This document shows positions 109 to 16,013 of a DNA stretch of 16,390 nt, one piece after another; position 1 is the first letter of the stretch; each line of letters starts with the position of its first letter. The translations under genes and the position numbers were made by a program. This DNA is from Vicinamibacteria bacterium. Lineage in GTDB: Bacteria > Acidobacteriota > Vicinamibacteria > Vicinamibacterales > UBA2999. The stretch lies in NCBI GenBank assembly GCA_025938035.1, contig JAICQE010000101.1:1-16390 (forward strand). The letters are read 5' to 3'. The notes under the pieces are model-generated. The model was not told the DNA's origin. It searched no databases and saw only the letters and a program-made list of their open reading frames with translations.

Positions 109-138
109 TTGACGTTGCTCCTACAAGTGTAGTAGATA
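109..138 (+). promoter_or_regulatory. Candidate sigma-70 promoter of the blaI-like operon
   Basis: A TTGACG -35 hexamer (109-114) and a weaker TAGATA -10 (133-138) are separated by 18 bp. They lie about 25 bp before the blaI-like start codon. The palindromic operator at 121-132 fills the spacer, which is where a repressor would block RNA polymerase. The -35 is close to consensus and the -10 is not, so the promoter call rests mostly on position and on the operator. Confidence 0.4.
121..132. promoter_or_regulatory. BlaI/MecI-type operator, copy 1
   Basis: CTACA-AG-TGTAG is a perfect inverted repeat with a 2-bp spacer. It matches the TACA/TGTA core that BlaI/MecI winged-helix repressors bind. 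It lies 30 bp before the blaI-like start codon, so autoregulation is likely. The palindrome is followed by TAG, as in the second copy at 6221. A lone TGTAG half-site lies at 68-72. Confidence 0.7.
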
Positions 139-162
139 TCACCACACGTATAGGAGCAATCC

Positions 163-549
163 ATGGCCCTCCCCCGACTGACGAAGCTGGAACTGCAGGT
201 AATGGAGGCGCTCTGGTCGCGCGGCGCCTCATCGGTGCGCGAGATTCAGGAAGCCTTTCCGGAGAAAGACCGTCCCGCCTACACCACGGTGCAGACGATG
301 GTCTACCGGCTCGAGGGGAAGAAGGCGATCCGCCGGCTGAAGAAGATCGGCAACGCGCACATCTTCGAAGCCGCCATCTCGCGCAACGCCGCGCAGCGGC
401 GGCTGATCGACGATCTCCTGAGCTTTTTCGGCGGCAGCCCCCAGCCTGTCGTCGCCCATCTGGTCGAGACCGGGAAGCTGACCCTCGACGACGTGCAGGA
501 GGCGGAACAGCTGATTCGCAAGCTGTCGAAGAAGGAGAAGCCGCGATGA
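163..549 (+). CDS. blaI: BlaI/MecI/CopY-family transcriptional repressor
   Basis: This 128-residue protein is a dimeric winged-helix repressor of the BlaI/MecI type, close to the usual family length. The N-terminal half (about residues 5-70) carries the DNA-binding fold, with the recognition-helix segment AYTTVQTMVYRLEGKK at 39-54. The C-terminal half (about 75-125) is the helical dimerisation region. The ATG at 163 follows an AGGAGC ribosome site at 152-157. The stop codon overlaps the start of the M56 gene as ATGA, the usual repressor-sensor pairing. In BlaI/BlaR1 systems the sensor protease causes cleavage of the repressor and releases the operon. I see no Asn-Phe pair at the equivalent of the classical cleavage site, so the inactivation step may differ. 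The palindrome at 121-132 suggests it represses itself. The symbol denotes the family; no beta-lactam role is implied. Confidence 0.9.
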   Translation: MALPRLTKLELQVMEALWSRGASSVREIQEAFPEKDRPAYTTVQTMVYRLEGKKAIRRLKKIGNAHIFEAAISRNAAQRRLIDDLLSFFGGSPQPVVAHLVETGKLTLDDVQEAEQLIRKLSKKEKPR

Positions 550-2432
550 CCTCGTTCATCTCGACTCAGGAGCTGCTCGCTCTCGCGGGTGATCACCTCT
601 GGCAGTCCACGCTGTTCGCGGCGGCCGCCCTCGTCTGCGCCGCCCTGCTGAAACGCCACAGCGCCGCGGTTCGGTACTGGGTTTGGTTCGTGGCCTCGGC
701 CAAATTCCTCGTCCCAATCGCCGCGCTCGTGGCGGTCGGCGGCTACAGCTCATGGCGCGTCATCGAGATCGTGCCGTATAGCGAAGGGCCGGTCCTGATC
801 GAAACCGTCAGTCAACCTTTCACGGGGGAAGGTGTTGCGCTTCGCACGCCCGGGCCACGCGCCGCTGCGGACACCACCATCATGAGCTGGCTGCCCGCGG
901 GCCTTCTCGCCCTGTGGGCCGCTGGCGCCGCGTTCTTCCTTCTTCGCTCGCTCTTGCACTGGCATCGAATCCGGAGGATTGCGCACGACGCAGTGCCCAT
1001 GACAGCGGGCCGGGAAGTAGAGAGCCTGCGAGCGCTCGAGCGCCGTATGGGCTTCACCACGCCGCTGCCGCTGCGATGCACGGAGTCGTTTCTCGAACCC
1101 GGCATCTTCGGCGTCGTTCACCCGGTGCTGCTCTGGCCGCGCGCAATTGGCGAGCGGTTGACCGATGACCAGCTGCAAGCCGTTCTGGCGCACGAGCTCT
1201 GCCATCTCCGCCGGCACGACAACCTGGCGGCCCTGTTCCACCTCGTCGTCCAGACCGCCTTCTGGTTCCATCCGCTGGCCTGGTGGATTGGCGCTCAGCT
1301 GATTAGCGAACGCGAGCGCGCCTGCGATGAAGAAGTGATCCGCCGCGGCAGCGAGCGCGAGACCTACGCGGAAAGCATCCTCAAGACGTGTCAGTTCTTC
1401 GTCGAGTCGCCGCTGGCGTGTGTGTCCGGTGTCACCGGGTCCGATCTGAAAAAGCGTATCGAAGAAATCATGACGAAGGACACCGTCAGCACGCCGGGAG
1501 CATTGAAGCGGGCGCTCCTGACCGTGGCTGCCGTTGCCGTCTTCGTCGCGCCCGTGGCGGTCGGGGCTCTCAATCCGCCGCCGCAGACACGCGATGTCGC
1601 CGCACCCGCGACGCTGCCGGCGTTCGAAGAAGTGTCGGTGCGACCGAACACCACAACGGGACCTGGCGGGCGCGGCGGCGGTGGGATGCAGCCGGGACGC
1701 TACGTCGCCACGAACCTGACGCTCAGGAACATCCTCCGCCGCGCCTACGCGGCAGCGGGATCGTCCGGGCCGAACGGTGGAATCGATCTGCTCGAGCAGC
1801 AGGTCGCCGGCGGACCGGACTGGGTCGCAAGCGACAAATTCGACGTCGTCGCAACGACAAAGGGGCCCACGCAGGGAGCCGAAATGCGTCTCATGCTCCA
1901 GCGCATGCTGGCGGAACGATTCAAGCTGAAGGCGCACTGGGAGAAGCGCGAGATGCCGGTCTACGTCCTGACGATGGCGCGCCCGGGAACCTTGGGCGCC
2001 GGGCTGACGAAGACCTCGGACGCGGAGTGCGCCGCCGCCAAAGCAGCCGCGGCAAAAGCGGCTGGCTCACAACAAATGCCGCCGATGCCGTCGGGGCAGG
2101 TCCAGCCGTCACCGCTTCAGCAATGCGGCTCGATCCAGTTCGGGCCGGGCACGCTGATCGCCCGAGGGGCACCGATGGAGTGGGTGGCGCAGACGCTCGT
2201 CACCGTCCCGGTGATCACTGGCATCGACCGACCGGTGCTCGACCGCACGAACCTGACGGGGAACTATGGCTTCGAGTTGAAGTTCGCCCCGGCACAGGCA
2301 GTCAATCCCGCTCCCGATCGGGCGCCGCTTCATCTCGCGCTGGAAGAGCAGCTCGGAATCAAACTCGAAGCCACGCGAGCGCCTGTGGACGTGCTCGTCA
2401 TCGACAGCGTGGAAAGGCCGGCGCCGAACTAA
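546..2432 (+). CDS. M56 (BlaR1-type) metallopeptidase fused to a TIGR03435 domain
   Basis: This 628-residue integral membrane protein has BlaR1 architecture with an unusual sensor. Helices are visible at about residues 18-35, 43-64 and 115-136. A cytoplasmic zinc-peptidase region follows, with the HELCH motif at 216-220 (zinc-binding His216 and His220, catalytic Glu217) and ERERACDEEV at 255-264, which should supply the third ligand. A fourth helix lies at about 323-343. The outside portion (about 358-628) is a TIGR03435 domain, from FEEVSVRPN through RPVLDRTNLTG to EQLGIKLE and VDVLVIDSVERP. In BlaR1 and MecR1 this position holds a penicillin-binding sensor, so TIGR03435 probably senses a periplasmic or envelope signal here. 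The ligand is unknown. The start overlaps blaI by 4 bp, so the two are probably translated together. The likely target is the neighbouring repressor. M56-TIGR03435 fusions are, as I recall, present in other acidobacteria. Confidence 0.88.
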   Translation: MTSFISTQELLALAGDHLWQSTLFAAAALVCAALLKRHSAAVRYWVWFVASAKFLVPIAALVAVGGYSSWRVIEIVPYSEGPVLIETVSQPFTGEGVALRTPGPRAAADTTIMSWLPAGLLALWAAGAAFFLLRSLLHWHRIRRIAHDAVPMTAGREVESLRALERRMGFTTPLPLRCTESFLEPGIFGVVHPVLLWPRAIGERLTDDQLQAVLAHELCHLRRHDNLAALFHLVVQTAFWFHPLAWWIGAQLISERERACDEEVIRRGSERETYAESILKTCQFFVESPLACVSGVTGSDLKKRIEEIMTKDTVSTPGALKRALLTVAAVAVFVAPVAVGALNPPPQTRDVAAPATLPAFEEVSVRPNTTTGPGGRGGGGMQPGRYVATNLTLRNILRRAYAAAGSSGPNGGIDLLEQQVAGGPDWVASDKFDVVATTKGPTQGAEMRLMLQRMLAERFKLKAHWEKREMPVYVLTMARPGTLGAGLTKTSDAECAAAKAAAAKAAGSQQMPPMPSGQVQPSPLQQCGSIQFGPGTLIARGAPMEWVAQTLVTVPVITGIDRPVLDRTNLTGNYGFELKFAPAQAVNPAPDRAPLHLALEEQLGIKLEATRAPVDVLVIDSVERPAPN

Positions 2433-2504
2433 TCGTTCGGATCGTTCGGATCGTTCGGATCGTTCGGATCGTTCGGATCGTTCGGATCGTTCGAGTCGTT
2501 CCCA
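2433..2504. repeat. 9-bp minisatellite (TCGTTCGGA)n
   Basis: Six perfect head-to-tail copies of TCGTTCGGA run from 2433 to 2486. Two degenerate units, TCGTTCGAG and TCGTTCCCA, extend it to 2504. The array starts on the base after the TAA of the M56 fusion gene and ends just before the duplicated segment. A 9-bp unit changes length without shifting frame. It may mark the recombination point of the duplication. Confidence 0.9.
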
Positions 2505-2515
2505 TCGAGGAGATC

Positions 2516-3281
2516 ATGACGAAAGATAACGTGAGCACTCCGGGGGCACTGAAGGGAGGCGTCCTGACAGCTGCCGGCATCATCGTGTTCATCGTTCCTG
2601 TGGCCGTTGGCGCCCTCAACCCACCACCGCAGACGCGCGACGTGGCGGCACCCGCGACGCTGCCCGCGTTCGAGGAGGTATCCGTCCGACAAATGGGATG
2701 TCATCGCCACCACCCCTCAGGCCACGCAGCCGCCGCAGATGCGGCTGATGCTGCAGCGGATGCTCGCCGAACGGTTCAAGCTGCGAGCGCACTCGGAGAA
2801 GCGTGACCTACCCGTGTATCTGCTGACGGTGGCTCGCGCAGACGGTGCGCTAGGACCTGGAATGCGACGGACGCCCGACGATGAGTGCGCGAAGGCGAAA
2901 GCCGCTGGACCGCCGCCAATGCCCGAACAGGTGCAGCCCGGACAGTCCCCTCCGCCGATGCCGCTCCCGAACTGCGGCGCGATTCAATTCGGACCGGGAC
3001 AGTTGTCGGCGCGCGGAACGCCGATGGAATTACTGGCCCAGACGCTGATCAATACTCCGGTCGTCACAGGTATCGATCGGCCGGTGCTCGATCGCACCGG
3101 CCTGACGGGAAACTTCGGATTTCAGCTCAAGTTCGCGCCCGCCACGAACGTGAATCCGGATCCCGATCGGCCGCATCTCGTCACGGCGCTGACCGAGCAG
3201 TTAGGGCTGAAGCTCGAAGCGACGCAAGCCCCCATCGATGTGCTCGTCATCGACCGCGTCGATCGGCCGTCGGAGAACTGA
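2516..3281 (+). pseudogene. Broken partial duplicate of the M56-TIGR03435 gene
   Basis: From about 2507 the sequence repeats the 3' part of the upstream fusion gene: the EEIMTKD segment, the last membrane helix (VPVAVGALNPPPQTRDVAAP) and LPAFEEVSVR. The M56 protease part is absent. At 2687-2690 the reading frame changes. The first part is in the frame of the ATG at 2516. The rest, from SDKWDVIATT to VDRPSEN at the TGA of 3279-3281, is one frame over. Relative to the intact copy about 191 bp are missing at this point (counterpart 1644-1832), and 191 is not a multiple of 3. The deletion thus removes about 63 residues of the TIGR03435 domain and shifts frame. TCCGAC at the junction could be deletion microhomology. 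A GAGGAG at 2507-2512 could still act as a ribosome site. Before the deletion this would have been a membrane-anchored TIGR03435 protein. Similarity remains high, so decay looks recent. Confidence 0.82.
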
Positions 3282-3284
3282 CGC

Positions 3285-3371
3285 TGCAAGTGGCAAGTAA
3301 CAACTTGCAAGTAACACGTGCCACTTGTTACTTACTTCCAACTTGTTACTTACTTCCAACTTGTTACTTGC
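3285..3371. repeat. Tandem and inverted repeat between convergent genes
   Basis: An 18-bp unit, ACTTGTTACTTACTTCCA, occurs at 3323-3340 and 3341-3358, with a partial third copy at 3359-3369. Reverse-complement relatives lie to the left. GCAAGTAACAA at 3293-3303 pairs perfectly with TTGTTACTTGC at 3361-3371. The block can therefore fold into a long hairpin between the TIGR03435 pseudogene (ending 3281) and the minus-strand membrane gene, whose TAA stop (3364-3366) lies inside the right arm. It could end transcription from both sides. Confidence 0.8.
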
Positions 3372-3729
3372 TGCGCGTCGACTCGATCGCCCGCAAGATG
3401 ACGCGCGTCATCCTGCTCACCTGCAGGATGACCGCCGCCGTTCCACCCGCGATCATCAGCATCTGGACGGCCGACGCCACGTAGAGCGCCTTCAGCGGCA
3501 GCCGGTTCACCCCGGCCGCCGGCGCGACATCGGGCAGCGTCGCCGTTCCAATTCCCGGGTCCGTTGGTGGCATCACGAATCTCGACATCGTGAACAGCAT
3601 CGCGAGCGTCACGGCCGAGGCGAAGAACAGTACCGTGATGCCAATGAGCCTCCATCGGCGAGCCGCGTTCACAGAGTCCAGTGCATTCCGCAGCATCGGT
3701 TCCATGTTGTCGTTGTCCGGCATCCTCAT
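3364..3729 (-). CDS. Small two-helix membrane protein paired with an ECF sigma factor
   Basis: I do not recognise a family for this 121-residue protein. It has a polar N-terminus of about 26 residues, a membrane helix at about 28-47 (ending TLAMLF), a periplasmic-looking loop of about 33 residues rich in Pro and Gly, a second helix at about 81-104, and a short basic tail. Its ATG (3727-3729) overlaps the sigma factor stop as ATGA, so the two are almost certainly co-transcribed and coupled. A second in-frame ATG lies two codons downstream. The position directly after an ECF sigma gene, together with the membrane topology, suggests a membrane partner or anti-sigma-like regulator. No zinc-binding anti-sigma motif is visible, so the role is inferred from context only. 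The last codons lie in the intergenic repeat. Confidence 0.7.
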   Translation of the reverse strand: MRMPDNDNMEPMLRNALDSVNAARRWRLIGITVLFFASAVTLAMLFTMSRFVMPPTDPGIGTATLPDVAPAAGVNRLPLKALYVASAVQMLMIAGGTAAVILQVSRMTRVILRAIESTRSK

Positions 3730-4259
3730 CTCCTCTTCTCTTCCAGATATCGCCGCAGTGTCGTGAGGCCGTACGCCAGCCGGGACTTGACGGTGCCGAG
3801 CGGAATCTCGAGGACCGCGGCAACTTCCGCCAGCTCCATCTCCTCCTGAAAATGCAGCACGAGCACGGCGCGGTTCGCCGGGGAGAGCACGTCGCCCGCG
3901 AGCAACTCGGCCAGCAGCTCGCTGTCGGGCGGCGGCTCAGGCGCGGGCAGCGATGCAAGTACCAGGTCAGCGTTGTCCTCGATGCCTCGCCGGCGAACGC
4001 GGCGCAGGTGACTGAACGCCGCCCGGCTGGCGATGCGGAACGCCCAGGCCCGGAACAGGCCCGGCTCCAGCAGCCACACCACGTTGCCGGCGATGGCGAC
4101 GAGCACGTCCTGCACCACGTCATCCGCGTCGGTCGCGCCGACGAGACGCGTTACGTACCGGCGAATTGGCGCCTGCACGCTGCGCAACAGGTGCTCGAGG
4201 GCGTCGCGGTCGCCGCATTGCGCGCGCAGCGCCCACATCACCTCGTCCTGAGGCGTCAT
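3726..4259 (-). CDS. RNA polymerase sigma factor, sigma-70 family (ECF)
   Basis: This 177-residue protein has the two-domain plan of ECF sigma factors. Region 2 covers about residues 20-90, with DADDVVQDVLVAI at 44-56 and the basic -10 binding part FRAWAFRIASRAAFSHLRR. A variable acidic and proline-rich linker (about 91-125) follows. Region 4 runs from about 126 to 175, with the helix-turn-helix EVAAVLEIPLGTVKSRLAYG at 145-164 that contacts the -35 element. It would direct RNA polymerase to a specialised promoter set. The first ATG (4257-4259) has no convincing ribosome site. The gene is transcribed away from the TIGR03435 pair that starts at 4379, leaving about 120 bp for divergent promoters. 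The overlapping small membrane protein may control it. I cannot tell which genes it activates. Confidence 0.9.
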   Translation of the reverse strand: MTPQDEVMWALRAQCGDRDALEHLLRSVQAPIRRYVTRLVGATDADDVVQDVLVAIAGNVVWLLEPGLFRAWAFRIASRAAFSHLRRVRRRGIEDNADLVLASLPAPEPPPDSELLAELLAGDVLSPANRAVLVLHFQEEMELAEVAAVLEIPLGTVKSRLAYGLTTLRRYLEEKRR

Positions 4260-4378
4260 GCGAGCAGATCGTTGCCCCGTTCGGTCATCGCCGTCGCCTG
4301 CTAAGAGACACCGCTGGGCCAGAAAGTTCGCATCCGGGCTCGCTGCAACAAATCGCCGGCTGCGGGGTTATTGCGGGC

Positions 4379-5206
4379 ATGCGCCGACTCTCCCTCGCAA
4401 TCGGCCTGACCTTGCTGACGGCCTTTGTGGCTGCCGAGAGGCCACAGTCACCGGATCGCCCGACGTTCGAAGTCGCATCCATCAAACCCAACAAGTCCGC
4501 TGAGTCGCGCAACGGCGCCGATGCGGCGCCAAGCGGGCGCGTCACCGTCACCAACATGACGCTCTATAACCTCGTTCGGAACGCGTTCGAGCTGCAGCCG
4601 CACGAGCTGGTGAGCGGTGAACGGATGCCGCCCTGGGTTGAATCAGAGCGCTGGGACATCGTCGCGCAAGGCCCGCCACTGAAGGACCCTTCGTCGCAAC
4701 AGCTGCTGCGACAGATGCTGCGGAACCTGCTCGTCGATCGATTCAAGCTCAACTCGCGCCGTGAAACGCGGGAGGTTCCGGTTTACGCGCTCGTCCACGC
4801 TCGAAGCGACCGCCAGCTCGGGCCGCAGATACGGCCATCGACGCTCGATTGCGCGGCGCAGATTGCCGCCGCCCGCGCACCGGGAACCGCCCGCGGCAGC
4901 ATCCAGCAGTGCGGACGGCGCGTCGGTCCGGGCTACATGGCCACGTTTGGCATGTCACTCAAGGATTTCGGCGCGGCACTCAGCACGTCCGCCGGCCGCT
5001 TCGTCATCGACGCGACCGGCCTGACGGACCGCTTCGACCTGGAGCTGAAGTGGAACCCCGAACCCGGAACGACCGACGCCGGCGCCCCCGCGGATGGCGC
5101 CTCGTTGTTTACCGCACTCCAGGAGCAGCTCGGGTTACGACTGGAGGCGCGGCGCGCGCCGGTCAACGTCTTCGTCCTTGAAACCGCCGAACGGCCGGAG
5201 GAGTAA
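4379..5206 (+). CDS. Secreted TIGR03435-family protein
   Basis: This is a 275-residue stand-alone TIGR03435 (DUF3738-like) protein of unknown biochemical role. The chosen ATG at 4379 gives a clean signal peptide (MRRLSLAIG..., cleavage near VAA-E at about residue 20). An upstream in-frame extension would bury it. Family landmarks follow in order: FEVASIKPNKS, VTNMTLYNLVRNAF, WVESERWDIVAQGPP, MLRNLLVDRFKL, REVPVYALVHA, RFVIDATGLTDRFDLELKW, LFTALQEQLGLRLE and APVNVFVLETAERPEE. Two cysteines flank a 19-residue Ala/Gly-rich loop and could form a disulfide after export. A second family member starts 4 bp after its stop, and an ECF sigma gene is divergent. Location in the periplasm or outside the cell is inferred from the signal peptide. 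Confidence 0.85.
   Translation: MRRLSLAIGLTLLTAFVAAERPQSPDRPTFEVASIKPNKSAESRNGADAAPSGRVTVTNMTLYNLVRNAFELQPHELVSGERMPPWVESERWDIVAQGPPLKDPSSQQLLRQMLRNLLVDRFKLNSRRETREVPVYALVHARSDRQLGPQIRPSTLDCAAQIAAARAPGTARGSIQQCGRRVGPGYMATFGMSLKDFGAALSTSAGRFVIDATGLTDRFDLELKWNPEPGTTDAGAPADGASLFTALQEQLGLRLEARRAPVNVFVLETAERPEE
5197..5203 (+). promoter_or_regulatory. Ribosome binding site GGAGGAG
   Basis: GGAGGAG lies 7 bp before the ATG at 5211 and inside the last codons of the preceding TIGR03435 gene. It fixes the downstream start and implies translational coupling of the two paralogues. Confidence 0.75.
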
Positions 5207-5210
5207 AGCC

Positions 5211-6047
5211 ATGAGAGTACGGTGTCTCGTCACCATATTTGCGATCACAATCCTCTCCGGACTTGTCGGAGCGCAGTCGCCGGCCGCGGCACGACTCACC
5301 TTCGAGGTCGCCTCGATCAAGCGAAACGTGTCGGGCGATCAAGGCAGTCAGATACGCGTGCAGCCTGGCGGGCAGATCGTGGTGACGAACAACTCGCTGT
5401 TCAACCTGATTCGAAATGCCTATGGCACGCAGCGATTCGAGATGGTGCCGGGCCCGCAGCTGCCGCCGTGGATCGACTCGGATCGCTGGGACATCATCGC
5501 CAAACCGCCGGCGGACGCCCCGCAACGCGAGGAACAGATGCAGCTGCGCCTCCGCAGTCTGCTCGAGGATCGATTCAAGCTCGACGCGCGCCGGGAGACG
5601 CGCGAGATGCCCATCTACGCGCTGACGATCGCCAGAAGCGATGGGCAGCTCGGCCCGCAGATGAAGCGCTCAGGCGATGAGTGCGCGGCGGCGGCCAGGG
5701 CCCGGGCTGCCGGCGAGGCCGCTCCGCCTCTCCCCCCGGGGGGCTTCTGCGGTACTCGAGCGAATAACGGAACCGTGTCGATGCGAGGCGTCCCGCTGAC
5801 CAACTTCGTCCGCAATCTGGGCGGGATGACGGGCCGCTTCGTCATCGACAAGACGGGACTGGCTGGACCGTTCGACCTCGACCTGCAGTGGACGCCAGAC
5901 CAGGCGCTGGGCGCTGGCGGCGCCCTGACCGACGGTACGTCACTTTTTGCCGCGATCCAGGAGCAGCTTGGGCTCAGACTAGAGCCCCAGCGCGCCCCGG
6001 TGGAGGTCCTGGTCGTCAACTCGGCCGAACGACCTACTGAGGATTAG
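5211..6047 (+). CDS. Secreted TIGR03435-family protein, second of a tandem pair
   Basis: This 278-residue TIGR03435 protein is closely related to its upstream neighbour and probably arose by tandem duplication. The ATG at 5211 follows a GGAGGAG site and yields a signal peptide (MRVRCLVTIFAITILSGLVG, cleavage near GA-Q at about residue 22). The order of conserved segments is FEVASIKRN, VTNNSLFNLIRNAYG, WIDSDRWDIIAKPP, LRSLLEDRFKLDARRETREM, RFVIDKTGLAGPFDLDLQW, LFAAIQEQLGLRLE and APVEVLVVNSAERP. The Cys pair encloses 21 residues rich in Ala and Pro. No active-site pattern that I recognise is present, so a binding or signalling role is as likely as an enzymatic one. Transcription is expected from the region before 4379. 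Downstream lies a 250-bp repeat-rich gap. Confidence 0.85.
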   Translation: MRVRCLVTIFAITILSGLVGAQSPAAARLTFEVASIKRNVSGDQGSQIRVQPGGQIVVTNNSLFNLIRNAYGTQRFEMVPGPQLPPWIDSDRWDIIAKPPADAPQREEQMQLRLRSLLEDRFKLDARRETREMPIYALTIARSDGQLGPQMKRSGDECAAAARARAAGEAAPPLPPGGFCGTRANNGTVSMRGVPLTNFVRNLGGMTGRFVIDKTGLAGPFDLDLQWTPDQALGAGGALTDGTSLFAAIQEQLGLRLEPQRAPVEVLVVNSAERPTED

Positions 6048-6049
6048 AC

Positions 6050-6185
6050 CTAAGGAATGAGGCCCAAGGCCTAAGAACAGAACGAAGCGTGAGGTCCGGG
6101 CTGTCCAACGGCGGGTCAGGAGTACGGCAGTGCTTCGTTTTTCACTTAGGCCTTAGGCCTTCGCCCTTGGGCCTAAAAAAGGTGT
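6050..6185. repeat. Intergenic GGCCTAAGG-type palindromic repeat, imperfect long hairpin
   Basis: The block between the tandem TIGR03435 genes and the next operon contains facing arms. GGCCCAAGG (6061-6069) pairs with CCTTGGGCC (6165-6173), and AACGAAGC (6081-6088) pairs with GCTTCGTT (6132-6139). The intervening 43 bases are unrelated. The right arm carries the GGCCTTAGGCCTT motif seen again near 14130, 14770 and 15985. GCTTCGTT is followed by TTT, so a weak plus-strand terminator is possible. The long loop argues against an efficient one. Confidence 0.7.
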
Positions 6186-6220
6186 CTAAGGGAACCAGTC
6201 GCGCTATGCTTCCGTATCAA

Positions 6221-6232
6221 CTACAGCTGTAG
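6221..6232. promoter_or_regulatory. BlaI/MecI-type operator, copy 2
   Basis: CTACA-GC-TGTAG is a perfect palindrome. It has the same half-sites, the same 2-bp spacing and the same trailing TAG as the operator before the blaI-like gene. It lies 67 bp before the ATG at 6300. This suggests that the same repressor controls the TIGR03435/Oar-like/VWA operon. I see no strong -35/-10 pair around it. Confidence 0.65.
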
Positions 6233-6299
6233 TAGCGACTGACGGGTTTCGGGCCAACTAATCGATCCGGCGGCGCGTCCAATGGGCGAGGTTTTCTTA

Positions 6300-7220
6300 A
6301 TGAAAAGACTGCTCGTGCTGGGCGCAGCTCTCGCGTCGGTGACGCTGGGCGCCCAGTCCTCCGACCCGCCTCGGGACTGGTCGGGAGCGCCGGCGTTCGA
6401 GGTGGCGTCGATCAAGCGGAACAAGTCGGGCGACGGGTTCATAACCATGGGCATGCAGCCGGGCGGACGGCTCACGATGATCAATATGCCAGTCCGACAG
6501 CTGATCGTCCGCGCGTATGGCGTGCAGCCCTATCAGGTCCTTGGCGGCCCGTCGTGGATCACGAGCGACCGGTTCGACATCACGGCAAAGGCGCCTGGTG
6601 ATGCCTCTCCGCAGCAGATGAACGCGATGCTGGAGACGCTGCTGGCCGACCGCTTCAAATTGAAGGTTCGCCGCGAAACCCGGCAGTCGGACGTCTACCG
6701 CCTGGTGAAGGCACGGGCCGACGGAAGACTCGGGGACGCCCTCAAGCCAGCGGCCGTGGAGTGCAATACGGGGCGCGGACGTGCCGGAGCTCCGGGACCG
6801 GGATCGAATGCGGCGCCGCCGCCAGGGCCTGCGATCGCCAGGCTCGGTGGGCCCGCAGGACCCGGCGGCATGCCGGCCCCGTGTCGGTTCTTGATCGCAC
6901 CTGGGCGTTTTGAGGCCATGGGCCAGTCCATCTCGGCGTTTGCGTCCACGATCGCGACTCAGTTGGGCCGTCCTGTGATCGACGAGACCGGCCTGCCAGG
7001 TGGTTATGACTTCACGCTGACGTTTATGCCCGACCCTGGTGGACGCGGGATGCCGCCTGGACCGCCGCCGCCCGGCGCTCCCGAACTGCCCCCGATCGAT
7101 CCAAACGCGCCTGCCCTGCCAACGGCGTTGCAGGAGCAGCTTGGCCTCCGGCTCGAATCGGCAAAAGGACCGGTGGAGATGATCGTTATCGACAGCATCG
7201 ACCAGCCCACGGAGGATTGA
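6300..7220 (+). CDS. Secreted TIGR03435-family protein heading an outer-membrane operon
   Basis: This 306-residue TIGR03435 protein starts at the ATG of 6300, which has GGCGAGG at 6285-6291 and gives a compact signal peptide (MKRLLVLGAALASVTLGA, cleavage before QSS). An ATG at 6282 would add six residues before it. Landmarks are FEVASIKRNKS, MQPGGRLTMINMPVRQLI, SWITSDRFDITAKAP, MLETLLADRFKLKVRRETR, RPVIDETGLPGGYDFTLTF, ALQEQLGLRLE and PVEMIVIDSIDQP. It is longer than the tandem pair because of a 39-residue Gly/Pro/Ala-rich loop between its two cysteines and a second proline-rich insert near the C-terminus. The next gene starts on the base after its stop. The BlaI-type operator upstream suggests repression by the 163-549 protein. 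Biochemical function is unknown. Confidence 0.85.
   Translation: MKRLLVLGAALASVTLGAQSSDPPRDWSGAPAFEVASIKRNKSGDGFITMGMQPGGRLTMINMPVRQLIVRAYGVQPYQVLGGPSWITSDRFDITAKAPGDASPQQMNAMLETLLADRFKLKVRRETRQSDVYRLVKARADGRLGDALKPAAVECNTGRGRAGAPGPGSNAAPPPGPAIARLGGPAGPGGMPAPCRFLIAPGRFEAMGQSISAFASTIATQLGRPVIDETGLPGGYDFTLTFMPDPGGRGMPPGPPPPGAPELPPIDPNAPALPTALQEQLGLRLESAKGPVEMIVIDSIDQPTED
7211..7215 (+). promoter_or_regulatory. Ribosome binding site GGAGG
   Basis: GGAGG lies 5 bp before the GTG at 7221, within the last codons of the TIGR03435 gene. It supports that start over the GTG at 7302, so the palindromic repeat that follows is translated. Confidence 0.6.
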
Positions 7221-10200
7221 GTGCGGACTGCTTTCACGTTCACGGGTCACGAAGGCACGGAGTCACGGAGAAACGTATTTCGGTTTTCCCTCCGTCCCTC
7301 TGTGGCTCCGTGGTTTGTCGCCATCATCGTCTGTGCGTCGATCTCGGCCCTGGCGCAATCCGATCACACCGGCAAGGTGACGCTGACGGGCGTCTCGATA
7401 CCCGGCGCGACGGTCACCGCCAAGCAGGGTGACACGACGGTCGCCACCATCACCGATCAAGGGGGCGTGTACAAATTCACCGCGATGGCCAACGGCACCT
7501 GGACGGTGACCGTGACGATGGTGGGTTTCGAAACGATGACGCGGGAAGTGACGCTGCCTTCGACCGCCGAAGGCGTTTGGGAGCTGTCGCTCCTGCCGAT
7601 CGAAAAAGTCGTCGGTGCGCTGCCGGCGCCGCGCGCCGAACCCGAAACCGCGACGGCCGCCGCCTCCTCCACCAACGGGTCTCAACGCGCACAGCAGCAG
7701 CGTGCAGGACCCGCGCCGCAGCCGCAGGGCAGCGCGCAGCGTGCCGTCGTCAATCAGGTGTCGACGCCGCCGCCGCCAGCCGGCCCGGCCGACGAGGCAC
7801 CGGTCGATCCGACGGGCACCGGTGCGGCGGCTGGGTTGCTCATCAACGGCAGCGTGAACAACGCGGCCACCTCTCCCTTCGCGCAGGCGCGCGCCTTCGG
7901 CACGAACCGGCCAAACCAGCGGTCGCTCTTCACCTACGCCGCCGGCATGCAGTTCGGCAATTCAGCGTGGGATGCGCGGCCCTATTCGTTCACCAATTCC
8001 GATCCGACGCGGCCGTCGTACACCGACGCGCAGTTCCTCGGCACGTTTCAGGGTCCCGTCAGGGTGCCGGGACTGCGCAACCGGGTAAACGTATTCGTCG
8101 GTTATCAGGGCACGTCTGATCACAACGCCTTCACCCAGTCGTCGGTTGTTCCAACGGCGGCCGAGCGCGTGGGAGACTTCTCGAACTCCGTGAACGCGGC
8201 CGGCAACCCGATTCAGGTGGTCGACCCGACAACAGGCCTTCCGTTTCCCGGCAACGCCATCCAGCCAGGGCGCCTCAGTCCAGAGGCTCTGGCGCTGCTG
8301 GCGTACTATCCGCAGCCCAACGCCGACGGGCGCCGGAACTACGAGACGCCAATCCTCACCTCGAACAGGGTGGACAGCGGTAACGTGCGGCTGGGCTATT
8401 CGCTGAACAACCGCCACCAGCTGCAGGGCAACATCGGCATCCAGCGGACGGAGGGCGACTCGACGACGCTGTTCGGCTTTACGGACGACAGATCGGGCAT
8501 GGGTGTCGATCTGCAGGCAAACTGGTCGTACCGTCTCTCCCAGTTCCTCAACATGCGGAGCCGCTATCAGTTCATCCGCAACCGCAACACGTCGACGCCA
8601 TATTTCGCGAATCGCACGAACGTGGCGGCCGAAGCCGGCATCGCCGGCACCGATCAGGATCCGCTCAACTGGGGCCCGCCGAGGCTGACGTTCGCGAGCG
8701 ACCTGGCGGGATTGAATGATGGCCTGTACGCGCGCTCGACAAGCAACACGCACGTGGTGGGAAGCGAGATTCAGAGCTTCCGCGGGCGTCACACGATTAC
8801 GGCCGGCGGCGAGTACCGGCGCATCGCGCTCGACGTGTTCGGCCAGCAGGATCCGCGCGGCAGGTTCAGCTTCACCGGCGCGAGAAGCGGATCGGACTTC
8901 GCCGACTTCCTGCTTGGCCTTCCCCAGACCGCCTCGATTGCCTATGGCAACGCCGACAAATTCTTCCGCAGCAACGCCTATGCGGCGTACGTCACCGACG
9001 ACTGGCGGTTGAGCCCGTCGTTCACGATGAACATCGGCGTGCGCTGGGAGTATGAGTCGCCGATCTCCGAGCGGCTCGACCGGCTCGTCAACCTGGACGT
9101 CTCGCCCGACTTCACCGCGGCCGAACAGGTCGTCGCCGCCTCGGCCGCGACAGGCGCGGTCACGGGCGCCGAGTATCCGCAGTCGCTCGTGCGGGCGGAC
9201 AAGCGCGGGTTCCAGCCGCGGCTTGGCATCGCGTGGCGGCCGGTACCGGGATCGTCCCTGGTCGTCCGCGCCGGCTACGGCATCTATCGCAACACGAACG
9301 TGTATCAGTCGATCGCCAACCAGCTGGCGCAGCAGCCTCCGCTGTCAACGACGTTCGAAATCCAACATTCGGCCCTGACTCCGCTGACGTTGGCGGACGC
9401 GCTGCTCGTCGGACAGTTGCTTGGGAACGTGGCCACGTTGAATACCTTCGCGGTCGATCCCGAGCTGCGCGTCGGCTATGCGCAGAACTGGCAGGCGTCG
9501 GTGCAGCGCGATCTGCCGATGTCGCTCACGGTCAATGCCACGTACCTCGGGTCCAAGGGAAGCCACCTGATGCAGGCATTCGTGCCGAATACCTACCCCA
9601 TCGGCGCGATCAATCCATGCCCGGCGTGCCCGACCGGCTTCCGCTTTCTGATCTCGGACGGCCGATCGCTTCGGCATGCCGGCCAGGTGCAGCTGCGGCG
9701 GCGGCTGCGCAACGGCTTCACCTCGTCGATCCAGTACACGCTGGCCAAGGCGATGGACAACGCCGGATCGTTCGGCGGCGCGACGGTCGACACCAATTCG
9801 CTGGCGCAGAACTGGCTCGACCTCGAGGCCGAGTACGCGCGTTCCAGCTTCGACCAGCGCCATCAGATCGTCGCGACGTTCGAATACACCACCGGCGCGG
9901 GAATCCTGGGCGGAACGCTCATCGACGGCGTGAAGGGCGCGTTGTTCAAGGACTGGACCCTGTCCAGCCAGCTCACCACGGGCAGCGGCACGCCGCTCAC
10001 GCCGGTTTTCTTCTCCCCCGTCGGCCGCACCGGCATCACCGGGTCGCTGCGACCCAGCCTGACCGGTGTGTCGCCCGACCCGATCAAGGACGGTTCGTAC
10101 GCGAACGCGGACGCGTTCGCGGTCCCGGCCGCCGGCGAATGGGGCAACGCACCGCGAAACTCGATCACCGGACCGTCGCAGTTCTCGATGAATGCGTCGG

Positions 10201-10382
10201 TCGCCCGGACCTTCCGCGTCGGCGAGCGGATCAACATGGACTTCCGCATCGACGCGACGAACGTGCTCAACCGTGTCACGTTCAATAACGTCTACACGCA
10301 GATCAACGGCAGTGAATTCGGACAGCCGAACTCGACAAACAACATGCGCCGCCTGCGCACCCTCGTGCGCTTCAGGTTCTAG
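7221..10382 (+). CDS. Oar-like TonB-dependent receptor-type outer-membrane protein
   Basis: This 1053-residue protein is an outer-membrane beta-barrel of the Oar-like group abundant in acidobacteria. Its signal sequence ends near ISALA-Q (residues 31-46) after an unusually long, basic leader. A carboxypeptidase-regulatory-like beta-sandwich follows (about 51-128; GATVTAKQGDTTVATITDQG, then TWTVTVTMVGFE). A Pro/Ala/Gln-rich linker (about 130-205) comes next, and a long barrel of alternating aromatic and polar strands ends in LVRFRF with a terminal Phe, the usual barrel-insertion signal. I see no typical TonB plug, so the plug is degenerate or replaced by the linker. Such proteins import large substrates or support surface functions; the substrate here is unknown. 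GTG at 7221 has a GGAGG site and directly follows the TIGR03435 stop. GTG at 7302 is the alternative and would skip a translated repeat. Confidence 0.85.
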   Translation: MRTAFTFTGHEGTESRRNVFRFSLRPSVAPWFVAIIVCASISALAQSDHTGKVTLTGVSIPGATVTAKQGDTTVATITDQGGVYKFTAMANGTWTVTVTMVGFETMTREVTLPSTAEGVWELSLLPIEKVVGALPAPRAEPETATAAASSTNGSQRAQQQRAGPAPQPQGSAQRAVVNQVSTPPPPAGPADEAPVDPTGTGAAAGLLINGSVNNAATSPFAQARAFGTNRPNQRSLFTYAAGMQFGNSAWDARPYSFTNSDPTRPSYTDAQFLGTFQGPVRVPGLRNRVNVFVGYQGTSDHNAFTQSSVVPTAAERVGDFSNSVNAAGNPIQVVDPTTGLPFPGNAIQPGRLSPEALALLAYYPQPNADGRRNYETPILTSNRVDSGNVRLGYSLNNRHQLQGNIGIQRTEGDSTTLFGFTDDRSGMGVDLQANWSYRLSQFLNMRSRYQFIRNRNTSTPYFANRTNVAAEAGIAGTDQDPLNWGPPRLTFASDLAGLNDGLYARSTSNTHVVGSEIQSFRGRHTITAGGEYRRIALDVFGQQDPRGRFSFTGARSGSDFADFLLGLPQTASIAYGNADKFFRSNAYAAYVTDDWRLSPSFTMNIGVRWEYESPISERLDRLVNLDVSPDFTAAEQVVAASAATGAVTGAEYPQSLVRADKRGFQPRLGIAWRPVPGSSLVVRAGYGIYRNTNVYQSIANQLAQQPPLSTTFEIQHSALTPLTLADALLVGQLLGNVATLNTFAVDPELRVGYAQNWQASVQRDLPMSLTVNATYLGSKGSHLMQAFVPNTYPIGAINPCPACPTGFRFLISDGRSLRHAGQVQLRRRLRNGFTSSIQYTLAKAMDNAGSFGGATVDTNSLAQNWLDLEAEYARSSFDQRHQIVATFEYTTGAGILGGTLIDGVKGALFKDWTLSSQLTTGSGTPLTPVFFSPVGRTGITGSLRPSLTGVSPDPIKDGSYANADAFAVPAAGEWGNAPRNSITGPSQFSMNASVARTFRVGERINMDFRIDATNVLNRVTFNNVYTQINGSEFGQPNSTNNMRRLRTLVRFRF
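7250..7314. repeat. CACGGAG-type imperfect palindrome inside a coding region
   Basis: CACGGAGTCACGGAGAAA (7256-7273) faces its imperfect complement ending CTCTGTGGCTCCGTGG (7299-7314), with CCCTCCGTCCC between. This CACGGAG pattern resembles dispersed intergenic repeats. Here it encodes about residues 11-32 of the Oar-like protein, ahead of the hydrophobic core of the signal peptide, unless translation starts at 7302. Confidence 0.6.
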
Positions 10383-10394
10383 GACAGGAAGACG

Positions 10395-12536
10395 ATGATG
10401 CGAAAAACGATCTTCACGCTGGGCGTGGCCGCGTGCCTCGCCATCAGTGCAAGCGCGCAGCAGGGCCAGAAGCCCGAGCAGCCACCCGTCTTCCGCAGCA
10501 GCACGCGTCTGGTCGTGAACACGGTGACGGTCCGTGACCGTGCCGGCAAGATCATCGAAGGCCTCACCGCCAAGGACTTCATCGTCACCGAGGACAACGA
10601 GCGCCAGGACATCGCGTTCGTCGAGTTCCAGCGACTGGTGGGTGAGCCGGACCCCGCTGCGACGCTCACCGCCGCCGCCCCCGCGGCTGCGCCTGCCGCG
10701 CCGGTCGCCGCAGCAGCCCCACCGCCGCAGGCACCCGAGGTGTCCAGCGTTGTCGCCAATCCGATTGCCACGCCCGCGTCGGGCGACATCAAGTACCGCA
10801 ACCGCCGCCTGCTGATTCTCTACTTCGATCAGAGCGCGACCTCGCCGCCCGATCAGATGCGGGTCTTCGACGCCGCCTTGAAGTACCTCAAGGAGCAGAT
10901 GCAGCCGGCGGACCTGATTGCCATCATGACCTATGGCGGGAGCGCCGTCCGCGTGAAGCAGGACTTTACCGACGACAAGGACAAGCTGCGCCAGGTCATC
11001 GAAGTCCTCATGTACGGCGAGGACAAGGACGGCGACGGCGTTCGCGATCCGGACATCGAGGGCACCGAGTTCGGCCAGAACGACGCGGAATTCAACGTCT
11101 TCAGCACCGACCGGCAGCTGGCCGCGCTGCAGACGGCCGTCAACATGCTGCGGCCGTTCCCGGAGCAGAAATCGCTGATCTACTTCGCCAGCAACCTGCG
11201 CCTGAACGGCACCGACAACAACGCACAGATGCGGGCGACAACGAACGCGGCCAATCGCGCGAACGTGTCGTTTTTCCCGGTGGACGCACGCGGACTGGTG
11301 GCGATGGCACCGCTCGGCGATGCCACACAGCGTTCGCCTGGGGGGATCGGCCAATTCAGCGGCGCGCTGGCGCAGTCGCAGATGTCACGGTTCCAGCGTT
11401 CGCAGGACACGCTGTACTCGCTGGCCAAAGACACCGGCGGCAAGGCGATGTTCGACTACAACGACCTCTCGCTGGGCATCGTCCAGGCGGCGGAGGCGCA
11501 GGCCAGCTACTACATCATCGGCTACTACAGCACGCATATCGCCAACGACGGCAAGTTCCGCCGCGTGAAGGTCGCGCTGGCGAACAACCTCGAAGGCGAG
11601 CTGGCGTACCGGCAGGGGTATTACGGGGACAAGGAGTGGTCGAAGCAGTCCACGGCCGATCGCGAGCGGCAGCTCGAGGAAGCGCTGATGCTCGAGAATC
11701 CGGTGACCGACATCACCGTCGCGCTCGAGCTGAATTACTTCCAGTTGAACAGCGCCGAGTATTTCATCCCGGTGTCCGTGAAGATTCCCGGCCGGGAGCT
11801 CGCCCTCGCCCGCCGGCGGGGCGCGCAGCGCGTGACGCTCGACTTCATCGCCGAGATCAAGGACGACCCCTACGGCCTCACGCAGGGGAACATGCGCGAC
11901 AAGGTGGAGAAGGACCTCGCGAACTCCACCGCGGAGCAGCTGGCCACGCAGCCGATTCAGTTCGAGACCGGCTTCACGCTGCTGCCGGGCAAATACGTGA
12001 TCAAGTTCCTCGTCCGCGACGCGGAAGCCGGCCGCATCGGCACCTATCAGACCAATTTCGTCATCCCCAATCTCAATAACGAGAAGCAGAAGCTTCCTAT
12101 CAGCACCGTGGTGCTCGGCGCCCAGCGCGTGCCGCTCGGCGGCGAGCTCGCCAGCGTCAGCAACAAGGCAACCGCGGCGCAGGCGTTCAACCCGCTCGTC
12201 TGGGAGGGGCAGAAGCTGCTGCCCAGCGTCACGCGCGTATTCAGCACGTCACAGGACATGCACGTCTACCTGCAGGCGTACGAGCGCGATGCGACGACAG
12301 TCACGAAGCCGCTGATCGCGTACGTCACCTTCTTCCAGGGTGATGTGAAGGTCTTCGAGACACAACCGCTGCCGATTGTGGACGGGTTGAACACCCGCTC
12401 GAAGGCGGTGCCGATCCGGCTCAGCGTCCCGCTCGAGAAAATTCCGCCTGGACGCTATGACTGTCAGATTGCAGTCATTGAGCCAGCCGGCCAGAAGGTC
12501 GCGTTCTGGCAGGCGCCGATAGCTATCGTGCCGTAG
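10395..12536 (+). CDS. VWA-domain protein, TIGR03436 acidobacterial type
   Basis: This 713-residue exported protein matches the acidobacterial VWFA-related family. A signal peptide (residues 1-21, cleavage near SASA-QQ) precedes a beta-rich segment with VTVRDRAGKIIEGLTAKDF (about 43-61) that is typical of the family. An Ala/Pro-rich linker (about 88-125) follows. The von Willebrand A domain runs from about 138 to 340, with an incomplete MIDAS-like DxSxT at 145-149 (Asp145, Ser147, Thr149), so metal-dependent ligand binding is plausible. The segment TLYSLAKDTGGKAMFDYNDL and the tyrosine-rich YYIIGYYS are also family features. The C-terminal 300 residues look like beta-sandwich domains. VAAC at 11-14 resembles a lipobox, but the signal peptidase I reading fits better. 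The gene starts 12 bp after the Oar-like gene, behind AGGAAG; ATG at 10398 is equally possible. It probably acts at the envelope with the receptor. Confidence 0.87.
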   Translation: MMRKTIFTLGVAACLAISASAQQGQKPEQPPVFRSSTRLVVNTVTVRDRAGKIIEGLTAKDFIVTEDNERQDIAFVEFQRLVGEPDPAATLTAAAPAAAPAAPVAAAAPPPQAPEVSSVVANPIATPASGDIKYRNRRLLILYFDQSATSPPDQMRVFDAALKYLKEQMQPADLIAIMTYGGSAVRVKQDFTDDKDKLRQVIEVLMYGEDKDGDGVRDPDIEGTEFGQNDAEFNVFSTDRQLAALQTAVNMLRPFPEQKSLIYFASNLRLNGTDNNAQMRATTNAANRANVSFFPVDARGLVAMAPLGDATQRSPGGIGQFSGALAQSQMSRFQRSQDTLYSLAKDTGGKAMFDYNDLSLGIVQAAEAQASYYIIGYYSTHIANDGKFRRVKVALANNLEGELAYRQGYYGDKEWSKQSTADRERQLEEALMLENPVTDITVALELNYFQLNSAEYFIPVSVKIPGRELALARRRGAQRVTLDFIAEIKDDPYGLTQGNMRDKVEKDLANSTAEQLATQPIQFETGFTLLPGKYVIKFLVRDAEAGRIGTYQTNFVIPNLNNEKQKLPISTVVLGAQRVPLGGELASVSNKATAAQAFNPLVWEGQKLLPSVTRVFSTSQDMHVYLQAYERDATTVTKPLIAYVTFFQGDVKVFETQPLPIVDGLNTRSKAVPIRLSVPLEKIPPGRYDCQIAVIEPAGQKVAFWQAPIAIVP

Positions 12537-14094
12537 GCTGACTTTCGTGGGGCGAGCCTTTCAGGCTCGCCTCGCGAACCCGAAGGGTTCGCGCCACGGA
12601 ACCGCGCATCCGCCTCAGCCCCAGCACGAAGCCGATCCCGCTCGACGTCAGCCCGCCGAGACAGAGGACGATCATCGCGATGTCCCACGACGGCCGGCTG
12701 TTGTAGAGATACGGGAAATCGAGGCTGTGCAGGCCGTGATAGACCCAGCGCTCGACGCGCCCCCAGCGATTGATCGCCGTGACCACCTGGCTCAGGGACG
12801 GATCCACGTAGACCCACGTCTCGGCGGGATCGTCGAACTTGATTCGCAGCGCCGGAAGCGGCACCTGGCCGACGCGTGAGTAGTAATAGGCGTCGTACTC
12901 GGACAGAAGCCCGGCCTCGACAATCCGCACCTCCGGTGCGGCCGCCCTGACTCTCTCGACGAGCATTGCCTGATCGAACAGGCCGCGGCGTACCGTGAAT
13001 GTATCCGCCGCGATGAGCACACGGTCGTCCTCGATGCGTGCGTGGCGGATCGGATATGGCTGATGCAGCCGCTCGCGATCGCCCTCGTCCCGCTCCACGG
13101 CGCTGCTGCGGACGACGTAATACGGCTCGTCGAGCATCCGGGTGAACTCGACCTCTTTCGCCGGCCGGTTCGCAAGGACCTGATCCCATTCGGCAGGAGG
13201 ATGGGCCGTGAACCGCGACAGATCGACCGGCCCGCCCGACAGCACGGTGCGCGGCAGCTCGAGCCCCGGCGCGTTCGTCCACTCCCATGGCTCCATCGAG
13301 ACCAGCCCGCTGAACGCAAACGTGAGCGTGAACACGCCGAAGACAACGCCGCTGATGTAATGCCACCGCATCGACCCGGAGTACGGCATCCCATTCCGCC
13401 GGAATTGCGTGACACCGAGAATCAGTCCCAGCACCGCGAGCACGCAGGCGAGCACCGACGACCACACGACGAGCCGGTACCAGAGAGGCTGGTTCGTGCG
13501 CAGCGCGGTGAAGTACATCCAGTGCGGGATCGTGCTGACCCACGCCCAGCCGCGGCTGCTGCGCGTGGTCATCATCGCCACGTCGCCGGTCTGCGGCTGC
13601 ACATACACTTCGGTCCCCGCCTCATCCTCCACGCGGAACTTGTGGAGCGGCAGCGGCGACTGCAGGGTCCATTGATCGACCTCGTACAGGGTGCGGACGT
13701 GATGGAGCTGCGACGCGGGTGTCCGCGTGAACGAGGCAGCCACGTCCTGCGCTTCTTCGAGCGAGAGCTCGTCGAGCACGTCGCCGGAGTCGGCGAAGAC
13801 CACGGTGCTGCCGCGCGACCCGAAACGGTAAGCCGGCCGATCGAGGAGCGTGACGAGCGTCGCGCGGCCCGGCGTCTCGAGCCCCGCGCGTTCTGCGGCC
13901 TCGGCCGGGGTGACGCGCACGCGCGCAAAGTCCACCGGATCGAGGCGCTCGAGCCGCAGTTCCGGCGTGACCCGCGGCATCCCGCCCCAGTACATCATCG
14001 TGATGCCCGTCGCGAACCACATGATGACGAGCAGGCTGAGGACGATGCCGAGATAGCGGTGCGAGAGAATGACGGCCCGGCGGAAGAAACGCAT
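12523..14094 (-). CDS. PepSY-domain transmembrane protein
   Basis: This 523-residue protein has the PepSY-TM plan: a first helix at about 15-37 next to His12 (LSHRYLG), a large periplasmic PepSY-like part, paired helices at about 206-227 and 246-266, a second periplasmic part, and a last helix at about 471-493. Histidines at helix edges (His12, His191 in IPHW, His245 in MRWHY, His453 and His456 in HGLHSLDF) are typical of this group. They could bind haem in a transmembrane electron-transfer role, as proposed for iron-linked members. Iron regulation is not evident here. The gene is convergent with the VWA gene and their 3' ends overlap by 14 bp (12523-12536). Residues after about 498 come from a palindromic repeat and are probably a non-conserved extension. 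No clear ribosome site precedes the ATG, and an intergenic repeat begins about 15 bp upstream. Confidence 0.85.
   Translation of the reverse strand: MRFFRRAVILSHRYLGIVLSLLVIMWFATGITMMYWGGMPRVTPELRLERLDPVDFARVRVTPAEAAERAGLETPGRATLVTLLDRPAYRFGSRGSTVVFADSGDVLDELSLEEAQDVAASFTRTPASQLHHVRTLYEVDQWTLQSPLPLHKFRVEDEAGTEVYVQPQTGDVAMMTTRSSRGWAWVSTIPHWMYFTALRTNQPLWYRLVVWSSVLACVLAVLGLILGVTQFRRNGMPYSGSMRWHYISGVVFGVFTLTFAFSGLVSMEPWEWTNAPGLELPRTVLSGGPVDLSRFTAHPPAEWDQVLANRPAKEVEFTRMLDEPYYVVRSSAVERDEGDRERLHQPYPIRHARIEDDRVLIAADTFTVRRGLFDQAMLVERVRAAAPEVRIVEAGLLSEYDAYYYSRVGQVPLPALRIKFDDPAETWVYVDPSLSQVVTAINRWGRVERWVYHGLHSLDFPYLYNSRPSWDIAMIVLCLGGLTSSGIGFVLGLRRMRGSVARTLRVREASLKGSPHESQPTAR
12546..12598. repeat. Double-hairpin palindrome at a convergent gene junction
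   Basis: Two perfect 9-bp hairpins stand side by side. GGCGAGCCT (12551-12559) pairs with AGGCTCGCC (12563-12571) around TTC. CGCGAACCC (12573-12581) pairs with GGGTTCGCG (12585-12593) around GAA. An outer stem, CGTGG (12546-12550) with CCACG (12594-12598), closes them into a three-way junction. It begins 10 bp after the VWA stop and encodes about residues 499-516 of the PepSY protein. It resembles REP-type elements or a bidirectional transcription stop, although no T-run follows. Confidence 0.85.
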
Positions 14095-14109: not shown

Positions 14110-14207
14110 AGGCCTAAGGCCGAAGGCCCAAGGCCTAAGGGCTGGTCAAGGGATAAGTGGACAGGGATAAGTGGACAGGGATAAGTGGACAGGGATCAGG
14201 GATTAGG
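14110..14207 (-). repeat. Composite intergenic repeat, left copy, with 14-bp tandem array
   Basis: Read on the minus strand, this copy has a tandem array, then ACCAGCCCTTAGGCC, then a GGCC/TTCGGCC palindrome block. The array is three perfect 14-bp units, GGGATAAGTGGACA, at 14150-14163, 14164-14177 and 14178-14191, followed by the relative GGGATCAGGGATTAGG. The palindrome block ends about 16 bp before the PepSY start codon, so any PepSY promoter must lie in or beyond the repeat. Confidence 0.85.
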
Positions 14208-14710: not shown

Positions 14711-14797
14711 CTTGTTTCCTGAATCCTTGGTGCCTGAATCCTTGTGCCTTATTCCTTGACCAGCCCTTAGGCCTTCGGCCTTCGGCCTTGGGCCTGC
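14711..14797 (+). repeat. Composite intergenic repeat, right copy
   Basis: Imperfect tandem units CCTGAATCCTTG, CCTGAATCCTTG and CCTTATTCCTTG (about 14718-14758) run into the ACCAGCCCTTAGGCC box and then a GGCCTTCGGCCTTCGGCC block ending in TTGGGCC. It fills the gap between the four-helix-bundle stop and the minus-strand membrane gene. It has the opposite orientation to the copy at 14110. Confidence 0.85.
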
Positions 14798-14801
14798 TGG
14801 A

Positions 14802-15939: not shown

Positions 15940-16013
15940 GCTTCCCTGAATCCTGAAGCCTTATCCCTGGGACCAGCCCTTAGGCCCTAGGCCTTCGGCC
16001 TTGGGCCTAAGGA
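15940..16013 (+). repeat. Composite intergenic repeat, third copy
   Basis: TTCCCTGAATCCTGAAGCC and TTATCCCTG lead into ACCAGCCCTTAGGCC (15972-15986) and a nested palindrome. CCTTAGGCC (15978-15986) pairs with GGCCTAAGG (16004-16012) around GGCC-TTC-GGCC. It has the same orientation as the 14711 copy, so the sigma operon lies between direct repeats. The right arm supplies the TAG stop of the tannase-family gene. ATTTTT follows on the plus strand, so it could also stop plus-strand transcription. Confidence 0.8.

Follow-up and report, generated by a model that had tools for sequence, protein, structure and literature searches.

Organization of the locus

The window, by which we mean the whole stretch of 16,390 bases analysed here, from a soil-type member of the Acidobacteria, carries a repressor and protease gene pair near its start and, beyond a separating stretch, a group of three genes. 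The first part, termed here the repressor half, holds the following features.

109..138, plus strand: likely blaI promoter, with a -35-like TTGACG (109-114), an 18-nt spacer with the operator inside and a -10-like TAGATA (133-138)
118..135, no strand: operator 1, comprising the 12-mer at 121-132 within the 18-bp stretch CTCCTACAAGTGTAGTAG
142..153, no strand: second, weaker dyad CCACACGTATAG, 21 bp 3' of operator 1, with 2 mismatches
163..549, plus strand: blaI-type repressor, PF03965 Penicillinase_R, E 3.2e-27
546..2432, plus strand: M56 membrane zinc protease with a C-terminal DUF3738/TIGR03435 fusion and a HELCH motif

The product of 163..549 scores 95.6 bits against Penicillinase_R, above the curated cut-off of 22.6, and has PDB relatives in 2g9w and 1sd4. 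In the product of 546..2432 the M56 domain scores 131 bits and the HExxH motif is present as HELCH. Its C-terminus is DUF3738/TIGR03435 where BlaR1 has a penicillin-binding sensor, and against the BlaR1 model NF000326 the protein reaches 97.5 bits, far below the cut-off of 400. A strict sigma-70 scan called no promoter at 109..138; a comparable order of TTG-rich hexamer, operator and TAGAT is present at blaI of G002, G062, G063 and G128. Of 18 blaI promoters (17 of the class and that of the window), 8 have a further dyad with no more than 2 mismatches in the 45 bases downstream, compared with about 1% in shuffles.

The two halves are separated by a stretch with its own genes and repeats.

2433..6217, no strand: separating stretch of about 3.9 kb between the cluster halves, with opposite-strand genes inside
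about 2607-3281: partial further DUF3738 copy, part of the separating stretch
3726-4259, minus strand: ECF sigma gene
about 4379-5206 and 5223-6047: two DUF3738 genes
6044-6176: 133-bp inverted repeat, with 45-nt arms that are 76% complementary

Scans of the window with the 12-mer and with an 18-mer described below found no operator site at the two internal DUF3738 genes (4379-5206, 5223-6047). A 9-base tandem repeat, ATCGTTCGG, of about seven units lies 3' of the M56-DUF3738 gene (window 2433-3281). After it the 3' part of that gene is partly repeated, in a copy that by eye is seemingly shortened and frame-shifted near 2680. Intergenic palindromes of the GGCCTAAGG/CCTTAGGCC type occur at 6044-6176, about 14110-14140, 14740-14800 and 15975-16015, the first being the 133-bp inverted repeat, which ends 41 bases before the start of operator 2 (6218); the dyad is absent from the other GGCCTAAGG-type repeats in the window. 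The minus strand also encodes a PepSY_TM protein (12523-14094), a second ECF sigma factor (15337-15870) and a tannase/feruloyl esterase, of which the window has the C-terminal part (16007-16390).

The remaining features belong to what we call the detached half.

6182..6210, plus strand: candidate weak promoter, GTGTCT-N17-TATGCT, read by eye
6218..6235, no strand: operator 2 (putative), comprising the 12-mer at 6221-6232 within the 18-bp stretch CAACTACAGCTGTAGTAG
6300..7220, plus strand: DUF3738/TIGR03435 protein, likely with a signal peptide; its gene opens the detached half
7221..10382, plus strand: Oar-like outer-membrane beta-barrel receptor, PF25183 (OMP_b-brl_4), with a carboxypeptidase-regulatory-like N-terminus
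10395..12536, plus strand: VWA-domain protein TIGR03436, whose gene closes the detached half

The free DUF3738 protein exceeds the curated TIGR03435 cut-off of 40 with 222 bits, and the VWA protein that of TIGR03436 (81) with 226 bits. An AlphaFold2 model of the former has a mean pLDDT of 83.4 and no PDB match at E <= 0.001. The gene names of the sequence-only reading hold, namely Penicillinase_R, M56 plus DUF3738, TIGR03435, an Oar-like OMP_b-brl_4 barrel and a TIGR03436 VWA protein. One start is to be corrected, that of the gene it listed from 6282, which is more likely the ATG at 6300, with GAGG just upstream by eye, 64 bases from position 6235. At the second site the strict scan, which also missed the blaI promoter, gave no clear -35 and -10 boxes. 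The candidate at 6182..6210 would place operator 2 over the transcription start.

Two copies of a rare dyad

The sequence CTACA-N2-TGTAG followed by TAG is present at 121-135 and 6221-6235. The 12-mer CTACANNTGTAG has two exact copies, at 121-132 (CTACAAGTGTAG) and 6221-6232 (CTACAGCTGTAG), so that the core at 6221 equals the core at blaI with TAG after it in both cases. A third copy is absent from the window even when one mismatch is allowed, in agreement with the earlier statement that the motif occurs twice and nowhere else. At 6220-6233 there is a perfect 14-bp palindrome, ACTACAGCTGTAGT, nested in a wider dyad (6211-6242, 76%). No second dyad accompanies site 2, the best candidate having 5 mismatches, and a strong hairpin is absent within about 30 bases on either side of both window sites.

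None of 200 dinucleotide shuffles of the window contained two copies of CTACANNTGTAG. Sites away from blaI number 47 per 850 Mb in 193 related genomes of the class (sizes rounded), a density corresponding to about 0.0009 per 16.4 kb and about 8e-6 per one given 150-bp promoter, although the window was chosen for holding the site pair and these density figures are not corrected p-values. In the same genomes (about 850 Mb) the pattern read backwards, used as control, occurs at 790 places against 64 for the 12-mer; being 12 times commoner, it marks the 12-mer as rare in this class.

An 18-mer, CTACTACANNTGTAGTAG, was also set by eye with both window sites in view, and searches with it are for that reason not an independent test. 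At up to 3 mismatches it matches the window only at 118-135 and 6218-6235, with one mismatch each (15/16 positions). Among the operons described below it has 1 mismatch in G250, 2 to 4 in the seven operator-headed operons of the class, 2 in G532, 3 in G321 and 4 to 7 in G001, G377 and G439. The 193 class genomes have no place at 1 mismatch or fewer and 14 at 2, six of them before blaI-M56. In 396 genomes of the phylum there are 14 places at 1 mismatch, four before blaI (G250, G421, G196 and G528); four of the other ten are in a single genome, G218, where loci L234-L237 show no match to blaI, M56, DUF3738, Oar or VWA in the fetched stretches using our own HMMs. The 18-mer as a conserved long operator is thus only weakly borne out. 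This weak fit slightly lowers the likelihood that both window sites share a repressor and slightly raises that of a paralogue acting at the second.

Distribution of the 12-mer in related genomes

When the Oar protein was used as query, 28 loci came up, and every one of them lay in a record named as Acidobacteria or one of its groups. Two of these (L015 and L020) have the 12-mer, each directly 5' of blaI in a blaI-M56-DUF3738-Oar run, and the whole genomes of both have a single 12-mer, at that blaI. The L001 genome has none.

Across the class the 12-mer occurs at 64 places in 43 of the 193 genomes. According to HMMs of our own, seeded from the window's proteins, 17 places in 16 genomes lie directly before blaI; of the remaining 47, a strong hairpin lies no more than about 30 bases from 16, and the other 31 are scattered. 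The 12-mer was accordingly rejected as a blaI-specific mark, and the hairpin-side sites indicate that the same 12-mer is also present in repeat elements. The proposal that sites would be enriched 5' of TIGR03435 and Oar genes fails in these relatives: among the 64 places, all of them fetched, there is none before a DUF3738 or Oar gene outside a blaI-led run, a count made with the same HMMs on stretches that for many loci cover 1.5 kb each side and in some cases lie near contig ends.

In G066 and G063 (L044, L064-L069, L042, L060, L061, L063) the 12-mer sits beside or between strong hairpins, for example GGCGGGTCC..GGACCCGCC, and each genome has several such copies. They form a repeat family with the look of a BlaI operator. 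In three genomes (L045, L051 and L073, of G067, G098 and G086) ACGAATGAG is found on one side of the dyad, which at L045 and L051 lies 5' of a gene resembling a sigma factor by eye. This flanked form is possibly the site of another regulator.

Operators of the closest BlaI relatives

The closest BlaI copies, taken at E <= 1e-32, number ten in nine of the 193 genomes. Six have the exact 12-mer at a comparable upstream position (G002, G062, G063, G128:C234, G133 and G143) and three a form with 1 mismatch (G036, G119 and G128:C236); neither form was found at blaI of G193:C116. TAG follows the exact 12-mer at both window sites and at five of these six, G143 having TAC. The dyad of G143 (L077, 7572-7583) overlaps the likely blaI start, unlike in the other close copies, and by eye there is an in-frame ATG just upstream. 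Of the nine genomes with a close orthologue, six were chosen for having the exact 12-mer at blaI; each of these matches the 14-mer CTACANNTGTAGTA exactly once, again at blaI. Allowing 1 mismatch adds a few places. One is at another blaI of G002; one in G133, with an Oar match nearby, lies inside a different, 583-codon reading frame and not 5' of that match.

The window BlaI and its seven nearest relatives have AYTTVQTMVYRLE in common, a region which we take to be the DNA-reading helix. Of the 17 class sites that lie beside blaI, 11 adjoin a BlaI only 23-33% identical to that of the window, and the core may thus be read by other BlaI proteins too. Two of these 11, G003 and G067, head the same operon type: at L020 and L070 an Oar-VWA operon with the same operator core stands under a BlaI 27-29% identical to the window's. 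The type of repressor at these two operons may have been exchanged.

Joined and free-standing operons

The VWA relatives examined include 14 operons, from 13 genomes, in which blaI and M56 are clustered with DUF3738, Oar and VWA genes. Eight of the genomes are in the class (G001, G002, G003, G062, G067, G128, G133 and G143); five further genomes contribute six operons (G377 twice, G439, G532, G321 and G250). M56 was not detected in the G062 cluster and the blaI match in G439 is partial. Within 300 bases 5' of blaI the exact 12-mer is present in 8 of the 14 (G002, G003, G062, G067, G128, G133, G143 and the distant G250) and a 1-mismatch form in one, G532. The other five have no form within 1 mismatch; the best in G321 has 2 mismatches, and G001, G377 (twice) and G439 have nothing nearer than 3-4. 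By eye, G377 and G321 have other dyads, of the CTACTA/TAGTAG sort. The window Oar is 53-56% identical to that of eight blaI-headed operons.

Free-standing DUF3738-Oar-VWA operons lacking blaI also occur; none of the 15 fetched stretches that contain one has the exact 12-mer. G048, G059, G064, G425 and G527 lie too near contig ends for their arrangement to be judged. No other genome was found with the separated layout and its own site, and the window is a single case.

In a tree of 35 VWA proteins the window pairs with G133 (support 100/95), and the two proteins are 68% identical. The G133 operon is unbroken and operator-headed, in the order blaI, M56, DUF3738, DUF3738, Oar, VWA. The next starred set containing both has 14 rows, of which nine are joined, three undecided and one free-standing, the fourteenth being the window; several rows, G133 included (360 residues), are shortened by locus or contig ends. 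The tree position makes it most likely that the window cluster was once a joined operon, which came apart after the sensor gene and ahead of the free DUF3738 gene; operator 2 stands at this break.

A probable second operator on a detached half

Which protein would read the site at 6221? We consider that the site is probably a second operator of the BlaI encoded at 163-549, carried by the detached half of a once-joined, autorepressed operon. Control of the blaI operon and of the Oar/VWA operon by a single BlaI-type repressor is made plausible by the relatives that join these genes in one operon, 8 of 14 with the 12-mer before blaI. To this extent the proposal of one repressor for both operons made in the sequence-only reading finds support; its extension to a wider TIGR03435/receptor regulon does not, given the 64 places described above. 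Several observations weigh against the preferred reading, namely the lack of clear -35 and -10 boxes and of a second dyad at site 2, the single occurrence of the separated layout with a site of its own, the absence of the exact 12-mer from the 15 free-standing operons, the five joined operons with no form within 1 mismatch, the distant BlaI proteins beside 11 of the 17 class sites and the modest fit of the 18-mer to the class operons.

In the ancestor the repressor, the M56-DUF3738 sensor, the free DUF3738 protein, the Oar-like receptor and the VWA protein would have formed one autorepressed operon under one operator. Now that about 3.9 kb, including opposite-strand genes, sets the free DUF3738 gene apart from the sensor, the distal half would be controllable only through an operator of its own, which 6218-6235 resembles. 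A BlaI dimer on both dyads would shut both promoters. An envelope signal, sensed through the DUF3738 domain fused to M56, would switch on the protease, BlaI would be cut and both halves would be expressed together. The scheme follows that of BlaR1-BlaI, in which, according to PMC7593790, signal sensing turns on the M56 protease and BlaI is removed by it. By analogy the DUF3738 part would be the sensor of the M56 protein, as no penicillin-binding domain was found in it.

The site might instead be a true BlaI-family operator read by another BlaI- or CopY-like paralogue, with the two operons under different repressors. Class genomes hold several BlaI-like candidates, up to 24 among the matches listed under a loose criterion, and the distant BlaI proteins at 11 of 17 sites would fit such an arrangement, as would the finding, in PMC7253601, that a shared 10-base core is necessary and not sufficient for CopY binding. 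However, the detached genes come from the same ancestral operon as the window blaI, and the TAG that follows the 12-mer at both window sites recurs after it at five of the six closest copies with the exact form. We regard control by a paralogue as unlikely. A further possibility is that the dyad at 6221 arose by chance or within a repeat, for instance as part of an intergenic hairpin element, and has no regulatory role. The 16 hairpin-side sites among the 47, several of them in G063 and G066, give this some weight, as does the 133-bp inverted repeat upstream of site 2. Against it, that repeat stops short of the dyad, the other repeats of its type in the window lack the dyad, by the same test neither window site has a strong hairpin on either side and the density for one given 150-bp promoter is very low; a chance or repeat-borne origin is improbable.

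The abundance of TIGR03435 genes around the site and in the operons of relatives might also suggest that 6221 belongs to a genome-wide TIGR03435/Oar regulon of this BlaI. That is contradicted in the relatives by the absence, in the fetched stretches as read with our HMMs, of any of the 64 sites before a non-blaI-led DUF3738 or Oar gene, by the single exact CTACANNTGTAGTA place, at blaI, in each of the six chosen genomes, by the location of the 1-mismatch place of G133 inside a reading frame and, in the window, by two internal DUF3738 genes that have no site. Such a regulon was rejected, and we consider it highly improbable.

Comparison with known systems and implications

A second operator of the window BlaI, as preferred here, invites comparison with characterized repressors. 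In common with BlaI/MecI the window has a Penicillinase_R domain, a TACA-N2-TGTA core in the repressor's own promoter, a blaI-protease gene pair and, at several promoters of this type, a second dyad about two turns downstream. The difference lies in the linked genes, which encode an outer-membrane receptor, DUF3738 and VWA proteins; Pfam scans of the window proteins gave no beta-lactamase or penicillin-binding protein. As with BlaR1/MecR1, an M56 zinc protease with HExxH is encoded directly after the repressor, but it carries DUF3738/TIGR03435 and no penicillin-binding sensor domain was found. Putative action beyond its own operon recalls BlaI of Mycobacterium tuberculosis (Rv1846c), for which PMC12565901 names ftsQ and Rv1303. 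Those targets are genes of cell division and ATP synthesis, whereas in the window the target is seemingly a detached half of the repressor's own ancestral operon. The CopY/CopR copper repressors are related and have the core TACANNTGTA (PMC7253601), and the Solibacter genome paper describes a paralogue group of CopY-family repressors (PMC3174227). Unlike those repressors, the window BlaI scores only 54 against TIGR02698 (cut-off 122) and is followed by a protease gene, and no copper transporter is named among the scanned window proteins.

Relatives of one DUF3738/TIGR03435 protein number 3,801, those listed as P0003-P0025 and known as proteins being 76-98% identical, and this large family is recurrent in the Acidobacteriota stretches seen. 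No paper naming DUF3738 or TIGR03435 was found in the open-licence PubMed Central literature and, among the matches listed, no title dealt with a BlaI-TonB link in Acidobacteria. We tentatively suggest, at somewhat less than an even chance, that in many Acidobacteriota BlaI and M56-DUF3738 may form a dedicated envelope switch for a cassette of Oar-like receptor and VWA protein, with DUF3738 sensing on the extracytoplasmic side and free copies beside the receptor; in the window, one promoter would have become two at the operon break with the link kept.

The recurrent operon would give DUF3738 a first testable role, in sensing for a receptor system and not in beta-lactam resistance, and 'BlaR1/BlaI' labels in these genomes need not signify antibiotic resistance. 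An operon that was broken and now has an operator-like site on its detached half offers a compact case in which regulatory links may outlast the disruption of an operon.
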